From NCBI GenBank assembly GCA_016165875.1, contig JABBOT010000002.1, positions 2,939,540 through 3,003,539 on the forward strand: a stretch of 64,000 nt of DNA. Reading direction: 5' to 3'. The translations under genes and the position numbers were made by a program. Below, piece after piece: positions 30,819 to 58,444 of the stretch. The notes under the pieces are model-generated. The model saw only the letters and a list, made by a program, of their open reading frames with translations, was not told where the DNA came from and searched no databases. Origin of the DNA: Acanthopleura granulata. Lineage: Eukaryota; Mollusca; Polyplacophora; Chitonida; Chitonidae. Every line of letters starts with the position of its first letter. Position 1 is the stretch's first letter.

Positions 30819-30922
30819 CTTGTCAGAGGAACATCAAATGTTGTACCCACCTTGTCAAACAGAGGAACATCAAACGTTGTACCCACCTTGTCAAACAGAG
30901 GAACATCAAACGTTGCACCCAC
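30819..30922 (-). repeat. 36-bp in-frame tandem array carrying a splice donor
   Basis: Three copies of 36, 36 and 32 bases. On the minus strand each begins gtgggtacaacgtttgatgt, and the full units end in gacaag, so every junction reads GACAAG/gtgggt, a good splice donor. In one frame the unit reads VGTTFDVPLFDK. The end, FDK, followed by VLVDVPC of the next NSUN4 exon, matches the family arrangement of an aromatic residue, Asp and a basic residue just before motif IV. Confidence 0.85.
30887..30922 (-). CDS. NSUN4: Possible NSUN4 micro-exon (end of the motif III region)
   Basis: The first copy of the 36-bp repeat, 12 codons (VGATFDVPLFDK), has catcag immediately upstream and the donor gtgggt downstream; phase 0 at both ends fits the next exon (VLVDVPC). 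A stop lies seven codons upstream in this frame, so if the piece is coding it must be a very short exon. The acceptor has a poor pyrimidine tract. The alternative is that only the donor and a few codons were copied here from a real exon that I could not find. Confidence 0.35.
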
Positions 30923-30952
30923 CTGATGCATGTGGGGTGTTTATTTTTGCAG

Positions 30953-31008
30953 TAAAATCCGTGCCAAGCTAGGACTGAAGCCTCTGGAGATACCCTCTAC
31001 TGAGACAG
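30953..31008 (+). CDS. SART1-like exon on the strand opposite NSUN4
   Basis: A 56-base segment with acceptor tatttttgcag and donor gtatgt. It encodes 18 whole codons, KIRAKLGLKPLEIPSTET, with phase 2 at entry and phase 1 at exit. The stretch RAKLGLKPLE is characteristic of SART1, a component of the U4/U6.U5 tri-snRNP in the spliceosome. No phase-matched neighbouring SART1 exon was found on this strand, so it may be a stranded exon, part of a broken copy or a chance match. It starts only 30 bases from the 36-bp donor array. Confidence 0.35.
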
Positions 31009-33061
31009 GTATGTTATCACATCGGGCATATTAATATTACCATATCATAAGGCATTGGGCAATTCTTGAAAAGTGTGTTTAAATTTAAGTCAGACTTCAT
31101 TGAAGTTCTGTGTTAGTACAAATCAAATGACAGTGACTGTAGCCCATACTTTAATTTGACTAAATTTGACTTCTACATTTGAACAACGGAATTGCATGAT
31201 TTGAATGTTCTGCAGAAATATTCCATTGATATATACTTATATGCAGTTCTGATTTGATAGTGGATTCTCTTCAACAACAGTTCAAGTTCCACATAGTACA
31301 AAAGAAGGCACATATACAGCTCGGATCTACACTGGGCTATGCTCTGTGTGGAAATAGTCCTATTGGACAAAATCAGGGCATTCACTACATAACAATCATA
31401 AAAGTTATGTTTTTAACATTACATTTACAAATTTTAATTTGCAGTTAGCAGTGATGCTAATAAAAATAATAATGAAAATAATGTAAAATCTATACAATCT
31501 TGAGTTATTTAAATGCTCTGAAAGGAGAACACAAGAAAATTGGAAGAAAAATTCACTTTTCTGCACCTTCACATTTTAAATGATATTTTAAAGACATCAA
31601 TGTTTAAAGTCTTTAAAAGTATTTTGTTTAAATCATATTCAGGAGAGCAAGTTCACGTCATGGTGTTAAATTGCTTTTAACGAATGTTTTTTTTTAACAA
31701 AGATTTACATTGGAATACTTTTTCTGGTAGTAAATGATAAAATATTTTATATATTTGATATTTTCATACTCAGACGATTTCTTCTGTTAATATATCAGCA
31801 AGTGACCAGGAAGGTTTGATCTGAGTGAACAGTAACTAGGAGTGCATGAGTTTCTTTTTACTGAATATCTAACCACCTGGAGCTTGAAGGAAGACGCAGC
31901 AAATAATGAACATTACCGTTATGAGTCATAAAAGCTGCTCTATTTTCATCAAGTGCAAAACTTTAACATGATTGCTCTTTTGTTCACAAACATGAAATAA
32001 TTTTTCTGCCTCGTTTGTTTTGCAAAAGCAGCCATATTCAGGGATATGGCCAATGAGTATGACGTACCCAGAGAACCATTAATTCTCTTCAAACTCCCAA
32101 CAGGGCTATTTTGTGAAAATGTTTTAGATATATGCAAAAAAAAAAAGAAAATGGACAGCCAACTGTTTGAGGACGAGGTCGCAGGCCTATCTTTGGCATA
32201 TATCTTTGGCATATTTGAAAAACAACACTTTTTTATTTTCTTTCCTAGTTTTTGGGTAACATAATGGACGCCATCAACTTTGTGATGTTTTAACAGTTCA
32301 GTATTTTCCTGATGCGTCATACCATTGCAAGCACAACATGGGCCACAGGTGATCACAAAAAAGGTCAGATTTTATGACGTCCTACCTGAAAGCATGAAAC
32401 TTTTTCTCTCAACCTCGTACACTGGATACGTCATGTAATATGTAGGTCATGTAATATCTGTTTTTTAGCTGTGTGAGACCTTTGGCCTATGTTTCCTGGG
32501 TTAAACATTTTACTGATGTGATAAAATGTTATTTTTAACACAGACAAAAAGTGACACGCACTATCAGTCAAGTGAAATAAGTTTATGTCCAATGTCTACT
32601 CCTGAATAATAATTTTTGTCCTTGTCATTAGTTAGAAATCACTAAAAATCCACTGTGGTATTAATACTTCTTCCCATTGAGAAAAAAGGCTTTGATGCTT
32701 TCTATACATGTAAGTCATCGACTTTTCAAAGGCCCTAAATAAGAAGTGTTTTGATTGGCTAATGGCATGGCCTCAAGCAATGGTTGCGTCAAAATGGAAT
32801 TTTATATCATTAATAAGCAAAAGTCTTGGGCTTTCCTTTAATACCACGATTAGCTCCCTTTTCCTTTAAAACAAATATTGCTGAACACACTGGCCTGTTG
32901 TTTCAAGTACAAGGGCACTTGCTCTGCTTAGCTTTTCAAGGTAACCATTACCAAACTGTATCTGAAGTAATAGCCGGCGAGTGATTCTTTCATGTGGTTT
33001 ATGTGGTTTCATACCACACTTGAGAATTTTGCACTTATGTGACTATCAGTTTTAAGTGTGC

Positions 33062-33296
33062 AGAAAGCTGGAGTGCCAGAAGTGAGCCACCGACCTCTGC
33101 AAGGTAACTGAGAAGCCTTCTTACTTGAAGCCGCAGTAAAATATTTATTTTTTTATTTATTTGATTGGTGTTTTACGCTGTACTCAAGAATATTTCAAGC
33201 AGTAAAATAAGTGGGAGCTGGATACCAACTGGCGACATTGTGGTCAAGGGCCTGACAGTCAAAAGGGGCAAGTGCTTTAACTGCTTTAGTGTCTCC
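33062..33296 (-). mobile_element. Old repeat interrupted by a SINE fragment
   Basis: The outer parts (33062-33139 and about 33199-33296) belong to the second dispersed family (gagccaccgacctctgcaag). Between them, 33140-33198 is a reverse-oriented tail fragment of the tRNA-derived SINE (tttatttgattggtgtttta, then tgtactcaagaatatttcaa). The nesting shows that the tRNA-derived SINE is the younger of the two. Confidence 0.6.
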
Positions 33297-33375
33297 ATAA
33301 AAAATGATCTCTTATAAATTCTGCGCTCTAGACCTTACCATAGAGTAAAGTCTCGTATAATTATGTCTATCTCAC

Positions 33376-56352: not shown

Positions 56353-56537
56353 TGAGGAAAATCTGACCGGTGTCTCTGGTGACACTGCGACAGTGTCGCA
56401 GCTCCTTGTACTTCGCCTTGAACACGATGTTGTCTGCATCCGGTCCTCCCGTCTTCAGAAAATATACTTGTTCACTGGAGATGAGTGCACGCAGGCTATC
56501 CTGGTCATTAGACCGCAGCAATTCCATCGTTATATAC
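56353..56537 (-). CDS. VPS13D: VPS13D-like protein, PH-like domain exon
   Basis: Phase 2 to 1; acceptor gttcatcctcag-like (catcctcag), donor gtaaac. It encodes LRALISSEQVYFLKTGG and VFKAKYKELRHCRSV. This matches the vertebrate VPS13D segment around SSKAVYFLKSG and VKYDDLYHC. The donor is weak but is fixed by phase agreement on both sides. Confidence 0.88.
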
Positions 56538-56891
56538 CTGAGGATGACAAATCAAAAGAGAAACATGCTCAAAGCAGGCTGTATCATGTCAATTGTTTTG
56601 CGCGCATGTAATTTTTTTTTTTCACTGTCTACTTTCCTGTCGCAATATTTTGAACAATAACAACTACTAAGTCAAACTTTTGATTTCACTGATTACAAAT
56701 GATGTTTATGTATTATTGACGTTTTTCACATTTCCACAATAAAACTGTATATCATGCTACCATTTATCACCATATTATTACGGAGGGCCAAACAGAAAAT
56801 TAGATTCTTCAGAATGATGTCATTAATCTCTTTATTTATTTATATATTTATCCGCAGATAAATGTAAATTCCTGAACAATCAATAACGTAC

Positions 56892-57145
56892 AGCTCTCGG
56901 AAGTTGTTCTCGTTCAGAGCATAGAGGAACTTCTGGTTCTCTGCGTGATGTGTGGAGTAGACAGGCAAGAGTCCTCCTGGACCTAGGCAACAGCGACGCT
57001 CTCGGATCCGCTTGGGCTGATGACGGGACTTGCTCTTACTTGTGTCACGCACAGCGCTGGCTGCCTCGGAGGCAAAGTCCAGCACCCCAGCCACGGGCTT
57101 AGTCACTGTCCCTACCACTCCCTTACCCAGCCCCGTGAAGAAACC
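56892..57145 (-). CDS. VPS13D: VPS13D-like protein, end of ATG2-like C-terminal domain
   Basis: Phase 0 to 2; acceptor atctgtcctgcag, donor gtacgtt. It encodes GFFTGLGKGVVGTVTKPVAG, then VLDFASEAASAVRDTSKSKS, then CCLGPGGLLPVYS. These track vertebrate VPS13D closely (GLGKGLVGTVTKPVAGALDF, RCCTGPQGLLPRYS) and separate it from VPS13A and VPS13C. This repetitive Gly-rich amphipathic region is shared with ATG2 and mediates membrane or lipid-droplet contact in the family. Confidence 0.93.
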
Positions 57146-57559
57146 CTGCAGGACAGATGACTGGCTTGTCAAAGCATGAACTAATAAAGGGATTGGTTAG
57201 ACTGCTCAGAACGCCAAACAATTACATATGTAGGCGTGATTTCCTTGACTCCTTGATTTGGTCTTGAAATTCAAGTAAGGGGCGAGATCCTGAGAAATTT
57301 GCACATGATCAGATTTGTCAGTTCTATCACTTTGAAATTTCACCTTGGGCAGTGGAATTTTCTATTTCATGAACTGTATCCTCCAATAATGTCAGCTTCA
57401 AGATGACTTAGGCAAATTGGAAGCCTCAACCACAATGGTGTCACAAAAATATGTTAAACTTAGATTAAATGGAACTTCCTTTCCAATTCAAACATTTGAA
57501 ATGAAGTTGGTAACAGCACTAAGTTATGTTTTTTGTCTGAACATCCTTGTCACATGTCC

Positions 57560-58444
57560 TTGATTACATCCCTTTTATTTTTACCTCAATGCCATCTTCT
57601 CACGCCCCCTTATATGTCAGGGACCCGATGCTGGTCAGACCTCCAGAAAGGCCATAGTACAGTCCCTTCATTCCTCCCTTTTATTTTTACCTCAATGCCA
57701 TCTTCTTGCGTCCCCTCATACGTCTGGGACACGATGCTGGGCAGACCTCTAAACAAGCCATAGTCTTGTTTCCTGCCTTTTTCATTCTTACCTCAATGCT
57801 ATCTTCTTGCGTCCACTCATACTTCTTGAACACGTTGCCAGTTAGAAAGAATGTATCTCAGAGAATGCAGCTCAGCCCCTTGTTTCCTGCCTTTTCCATT
57901 CTTACCTCAATCCCATCCTCTTGCGTCCCCTCATGCATCTGGGACACGATGCTGGTCAGACCTCCATATAGGCCATAGTTCAGCCACTTGTTTCCTGCCT
58001 TCTCCATTCTTACCTCAATGCCATCTTCTTGCGTCCCCTAATACGTCAGGGACACGATGCCGGTCAGACCTCTAAACAGGCATTAGTCCAGTCCCCTGAT
58101 TGCTGCCTTTCCATTCTTACCTCAATGCCATCTTCTCGCACCCCCTCATATGTCTAGGACACGTTGCAGGTTAGACCTCCAAAGAGGTTGTAGCTCAGCC
58201 CCTTGATTCCTGCCTTTTCCATTCTTACCTCAATGCCATCTTCTTGCGTCCACTCATACATCTGAGACACAATGCTGGTCAGATCTCCAAAGAGGTTGTA
58301 GCTCAGCCCCTTGATTCCTGCCTTTTCCATTCTTACCTCAATGCCATCTTCTTGCGTCCACTCATACATCTGAGACACAATGCTGGTCAGATCTCCAAAG
58401 AGGTTGTAGCTCAGCCCCTTGATCCTTGCCTTCTCCATTCTTAC
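57560..58444 (-). repeat. Tandem array of a VPS13D exon end and its splice donor, 108-bp unit
   Basis: Eight decoy copies lie downstream (lower coordinates) of the functional donor at 58444. The donor motif gag/gtaagaatgg or close variants recurs at about 108-base steps (near 58337, 58229, 58120, 58013, 57905, 57791, 57689 and 57582). Each unit has 90 exon-derived bases (30 codons, GIKGLSYNLFGDLTSIVSQM and on, to EDGIE) plus 18 intron bases. The two units nearest the exon are identical or nearly so and fully open. The third has an in-frame TAG. The farther ones carry stops and indels, so the array ages away from the exon. Confidence 0.93.

Follow-up and report, generated by a model that had tools for sequence, protein, structure and literature searches.

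The window considered here is a stretch of 64,000 nucleotides from the chiton Acanthopleura granulata (assembly GCA_016165875.1, contig JABBOT010000002.1, positions 2,939,540 to 3,003,539 of the forward strand), in which an NSUN4-like gene, a C2H2 gene and a VPS13D-like gene each carry a tandem array lying across one exon-intron border. Each unit of these three arrays contains one splice site together with the adjoining part of the exon. We call the copy that belongs to the exon, and its splice site, the used one and the remaining copies decoys. Arrays in the window were detected with Tandem Repeats Finder (TRF), and splice sites were scored with matrices of consensus values. The available part of the report on the published assembly of this species gives 606.9 Mb in 87 scaffolds, built from Nanopore and Illumina reads (PMC7850002). 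Our search for copies of the array units covered 606,523,666 bases on 87 contigs, and its counts of matches are lower bounds.

In the NSUN4 gene, whose exons were located by tblastn and whose best protein match is the NSUN4 of the chiton Liolophura sinensis (66%), the array holds 23 acceptor sites, and the site at 33507 adjoins the exon body. The AG is retained in 20 of the 22 decoy acceptors, and all eight decoys tested run into stop codons. Of the nine acceptor sites in the C2H2 array, the used one lies at 47283 and the other eight, the decoys, all keep their AG (8/8); a decayed older copy is found at about 46204-46330. Here too, all eight decoys tested lead into stops. When the six exons of this gene are joined they give an uninterrupted frame of 1259 amino acids, and the protein aligns across the array-fed exon with all nine mollusc orthologues compared. 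The gene also has in-frame coding repeats at 43674-43762 (39 bp) and 49537-49585 (21 bp). The VPS13D array has nine donor sites, the used one at 58444 among them, and the later decoy donors that were tested run into stops. A Pfam search of the VPS13D piece returned no family at E 0.001. At its junction, 117 of the 120 listed homologues that cover this point, none known to come from this species, have no insert of more than 3 amino acids. Genome matches number at least 24 for the NSUN4 unit, at least 10 for the C2H2 unit and at least 9 for the VPS13D unit, and all of them (24/24, 10/10 and 9/9) fall within the respective window array; we therefore rejected a dispersed satellite or transposon as their source. 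Nor are the arrays tandem exon duplications, in which a unit is a whole exon with both splice sites, since of these two sites their units carry one. An earlier note on this DNA had put the unit lengths at about 87, 107 and 108 bp; the latter two were borne out, and the first is corrected to 88 bp with 84-bp variants.

That note had counted four splice-border arrays in the three genes. The 88-, 107- and 108-bp arrays hold, but a 36-bp array, also assigned to NSUN4, is doubtful. Its copies carry AAG/GTGGGT donors following GATFDVPLFDK, 11 residues that match the end of an NSUN4 exon; the unit bears AG/GT and its length is in frame, and the exon is incomplete. Neither the searched stretch of the window nor the four genome matches (E 0.001) yielded the remaining ~37 residues of this exon. 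A segment of 368 bp (30924-31291) that begins at the last base of the array is 100% identical to contig C10 (L051:2832-3199) and occupies the place expected for most of an NSUN4 exon. The identical stretch of C10 resembles what we take to be the SART1 gene. A chimeric join in the assembly or a very recent insertion likely accounts for the segment. With most of the exon not found and this segment at its edge, we dropped the 36-bp array as a firm border array. Inside the NSUN4 acceptor array, between 33737 and 34933, a block of 588 bp has an exact repeat displaced by 609 bp, in an array whose other copies differ by ~13%. The exact repeat fits either a recent step that copied a block of several units or a slip of assembly, and it hints, in this single assembly, at a recent change in copy number. 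The 368-bp segment and the 588-bp repeat are what would speak for the arrays being assembly artefacts altogether, but the exon parts of decoys differ from each other by ~3-22% on average and the same pattern is present on several contigs, and we regard an artefact as very improbable.

Table 1. Border arrays and the exons they supply. Positions are those of the window, except for loci of the kinase sample (L012 to L025), which have their own numbering.
Feature	Position	Strand	Unit (bp)	Copies or sites	Basis or remark
NSUN4 acceptor array	33471..35505	-	88 (84-bp variants)	23 copies	TRF, tblastn, copy listing, site scores
NSUN4 exon, supplied by last array copy	33387..33507	-			84% identity to chiton NSUN4 residues 164-214 (tblastn)
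C2H2 acceptor array	46333..47348	+	107	9.5 copies	TRF, copy listing, site scores
C2H2 exon, last array copy (DNGVRCIVNEADGTFKCLDCDY...)	47283..47397	+			frame and orthologue alignment
VPS13D donor array	57558..58538	-	108	9 copies	TRF, copy listing, site scores
VPS13D exon, 3' end is first array copy	58445..58651	-			homologue comparison
36-bp array, doubtful NSUN4 exon end	30824..30924	-	36	2.8 copies	TRF, tblastn, site scores
L012 82-bp donor array	L012:3940-4974		82	12 sites, one with GC for GT	kinase gene
L012 41-bp donor array	L012:5641-6861		41	28 sites	same kinase gene as the 82-bp array
L023 donor array	L023:3825-4041		104	2 sites	kinase family match 2.3e-5
L025 acceptor array	L025:878-1551		100		kinase family match 6.1e-12
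L018 donor array	L018:4186-4488		104		weak homology, by eye
L017 donor array	L017:9537-9905		63		codon and splice scores

In each case the copy directly joined to the exon body is the exon copy and supplies the conserved protein sequence; it is the last one at the two acceptors (33507 and 47283) and the first one at the VPS13D donor (58444). This layout had been put forward in the earlier note as a rule, and as a description it stands. As a biological rule it is rejected, since it follows from the geometry of a tandem duplication across one border: no copy other than the one abutting the exon body can be exon, because the exon body follows only the last duplicated acceptor and precedes only the first duplicated donor. 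The survival and the frequency of border arrays, not their layout, are the points that need explaining.

Border arrays are found on several contigs. For comparison we took 40 stretches around kinase-domain exons, picked without regard to arrays, which contain 33 arrays with a period of at least 20. Six more border arrays were recognized by eye among these 33, two of them supported by weak homology. The automatic exon caller, with a codon table trained on the window genes and 28 kinase exons (including the L012 exon at 4928-5155), found four to five and overlooks some exons, such as that of L018. The sample is clustered, in that two of the border arrays share one gene and all six fall within the 20 long loci. 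The two array-bearing exons of L012 belong to one kinase gene, their joined peptide matching Pkinase at 5.7e-40. The L018 exon presumably resembles a CDK exon; the L018 and L017 peptides returned no Pfam family at E 1.

Decoys in seven arrays were compared with each other and with the used copy. Of 84 decoys, 80 retain their GT or AG (with 24 of the 28 sites of the L012 41-bp array entered), a proportion inflated because the sites were located by motif. The mean pairwise identity of decoys in the exon part and the intron part, respectively, is 0.78 and 0.87 in VPS13D, 0.87 and 0.88 in NSUN4, 0.97 and 0.96 in C2H2, 0.81 and 0.86 in the L012 82-bp array, 0.95 and 1.00 in the L012 41-bp array, 0.84 and 0.69 in L025, and 0.81 and 0.80 in L017. 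Exon parts are thus not better kept than intron parts, L025 excepted, and with the two parts similarly diverged in most of the seven arrays the decoys show no coding constraint. Decoys farther from the used copy are less identical to it in both parts of VPS13D, in the exon part of L017 and in the intron part of C2H2; no significant trend is seen in the remaining four arrays, among which the exon part of the L012 82-bp array points the opposite way (rho 0.56, P 0.07). Unit length is divisible by 3 in three of ten border arrays (four in the window, counting the shaky 36-bp array, and six in the sample), which is the chance level, and in five of six repeats inside coding exons of the window. This pattern mostly fits the idea that splicing hides the border copies.

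Taken together, we consider it probable that these arrays are GC-rich minisatellites spanning one exon-intron border, whose extra copies are spliced out, are probably near-neutral and are free to expand. Such an array would begin with a tandem duplication that happened to cover one exon border and would grow by slippage or unequal exchange, and splicing would likely leave the extra copies in the intron. The array would not be removed because splicing would still join the copy contiguous with the exon body, and this exon-adjacent copy is predicted from exon definition to win because it alone sits beside the rest of the exon. A shared richness in GC, of minisatellites in this genome and of exons within genes, would make borders somewhat frequent targets; GC content is 0.476 in arrays and 0.50 in predicted exons, against 0.399 overall. 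Tolerance of such arrays, one of two explanations offered in the earlier note, finds support in that they recur elsewhere, that exon and intron parts have diverged alike and that 7/10 units are not multiples of 3.

Several observations weigh against this reading. Used and decoy splice sites have similar scores in most arrays, the decoys scoring as high as the used sites, and correct site choice is an assumption made from sequence. Splicing at the first or second VPS13D decoy donor would lengthen the protein in frame by 36 or 72 residues, so that these two may be used, and three tiny repeats inside predicted exons of the sample loci are not divisible by 3. If some decoys were in fact used, they would provide alternative splice sites and protein length variants of the sort reported for IFI6. 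The equal scores and the in-frame VPS13D donors would agree with this, as would the in-frame length of the 36-bp unit, and a weak GT that closes the C2H2 decoys (ACTTGTGAGAG), noted by eye, makes a mini-exon conceivable. Against it stand the stops met by the eight C2H2 and eight NSUN4 decoys tested, the lack of coding constraint on the exon parts of decoys, and the scarcity of inserts at the VPS13D junction among the listed homologues. We therefore regard the use of decoys as improbable.

The remaining points against our reading concern where arrays lie and how far their units reach. Overlap of arrays with exon borders, compared with random placement at the 40 kinase loci, showed a weak excess over uniform placement but no significant one when placement was matched for GC. 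In what we take to be the best uniform test, in which arrays were inserted in silico with both end copies intact and borders were found by the automatic exon caller, 4/33 arrays outside the window straddle a border against 1.13 expected (P 0.023), and 5/33 against 1.97 in a second setting (P 0.039). This excess is nominally significant in that pair of tests and weak. A simulation with one intact end gave larger differences (4 against 0.62, P 0.002; 5 against 1.54, P 0.013) and was set aside as biased because roughly half of the simulations had mutations in the exon-adjacent copy. With a splice-aware caller, floor collapse gave 4/33 against 1.32-1.48, and round collapse gave 2/33 against 0.88 and 3/33 against 1.58-1.72 (P 0.21-0.25). 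GC-matched placement predicts 2.83 of 33 where five were observed (P 0.14), an expectation that may be inflated, the border arrays being GC-rich themselves. Coding scores at array edges outside the window reach 10 bits at 8 of 66 edges against 6.2 expected, 15 bits at 5 against 3.2 and 20 bits at 2 against 1.6. In the window, 0.25-0.42 of ten arrays would be expected to cross a border placed by the automatic caller and three do, the window having been singled out for such arrays. A strict test on the ends of Pfam kinase exons found 1/82 within an array, where arrays cover 5.0% of bases.

The units of six donor arrays (the 36-bp array excluded) reach only 2-21 nt into the intron, while acceptor units contain ~30-50 nt of it. 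The short donor parts have P ~3e-4 against uniform break points, in a pattern spotted after the fact, and they count against our reading because GC-biased placement does not predict them. Speculatively, a filter could act: the copy retained by the exon must have one complete splice signal, and if units took in more of the intron, a decoy could perhaps be included as an additional exon. The alternative is a mutational process aimed at exon ends that copies the exon end and little beyond the splice signal, so that border arrays are over-produced. The excess over uniform placement, the window count and the short donor parts would favor such a process, but the window was chosen after the fact, the GC-matched and round-collapse comparisons are not significant, and kinase exon ends rarely lie in arrays; we hold it to be unlikely. 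A broader proposal, that splice-border minisatellites form a recurrent class made by a process copying the exon end with one splice signal (2-21 nt of intron at donors, ~30-50 nt at acceptors), is put forward only tentatively, as doubtful. If it were true, exon-end copying would leave working genes with numerous natural series of near-identical splice sites in competition. The process starting at exon borders that the earlier note had suggested is thus not required by a small excess over uniform placement that GC matching renders nonsignificant and a strict test that gave 1/82. For the border arrays of this small sample, birth by GC-biased chance followed by tolerance is the account that we think likely to be right.

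The window also holds other features. A dispersed repeat occurs at 652-871, 51089-51421, 55422-55628 and 63745-63871 and again at L051:3872-4098, the L051 copy being 76-82% alike to those of the window, and a two-copy tandem at 51193-51484 overlaps it. On the minus strand, 14096-15193 forms one open frame (366 codons) whose cysteines follow a RING-like pattern. Another gene may have its first coding exon at 50421-50485, where MAEKKEKHKKISYTYMPETYEG precedes a GTAAAT donor.

An intron offering 23 near-equal acceptors or 28 near-equal donors, one of them preserving the protein, amounts to a natural experiment on spliceosomal choice among equal sites, a question that can be addressed with existing chiton RNA-seq and genomes. 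Border arrays also suggest why repeats that would be ruinous inside an exon can persist at its edge.

Intron gain by tandem genomic duplication, in the accessible portions of the reports on it, resembles the chiton arrays in that duplicated exon sequence with splice-like sites lands between splice sites (PMC3443670, PMC2891723). The chiton arrays differ in apparently extending, from one of its borders, an intron that was already there. Introns derived from tandem arrays were reportedly also described by Zhuo in 2007. The earlier note knew of no named class for such arrays; going by the available text of two sources, the class has already been published. One of these describes internal tandem repeats at exon-intron boundaries, with ~30-bp units in four copies, in human genes in segmental duplications (PMC2812944). 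The human and the chiton arrays are both tandem units of minisatellite size across an exon-intron boundary, the chiton units by TRF and the crossing by protein homology for the three window arrays. Some human copies are retained in the transcript and some are spliced out. The human repeats belong to recent paralogues and were seen in transcripts, whereas the chiton arrays have units of 36-108 bp in up to ~30 copies, lie in single genes and are known from the genome alone. The other is the minisatellite of IFI6 (6-16), whose repeat units at an exon end each give a splice donor (Turri 1995, as cited in PMC4526556), as do the units of the chiton donor arrays. Downstream IFI6 units are used as donors, and in the chiton acceptor arrays occur as well. 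Among the entries listed, no paper on such arrays in molluscs was found in the open-access literature searched, a scope outside which most subscription papers fall. The kind of array is therefore already known, and it is the density and copy number of the chiton arrays that look unusual.

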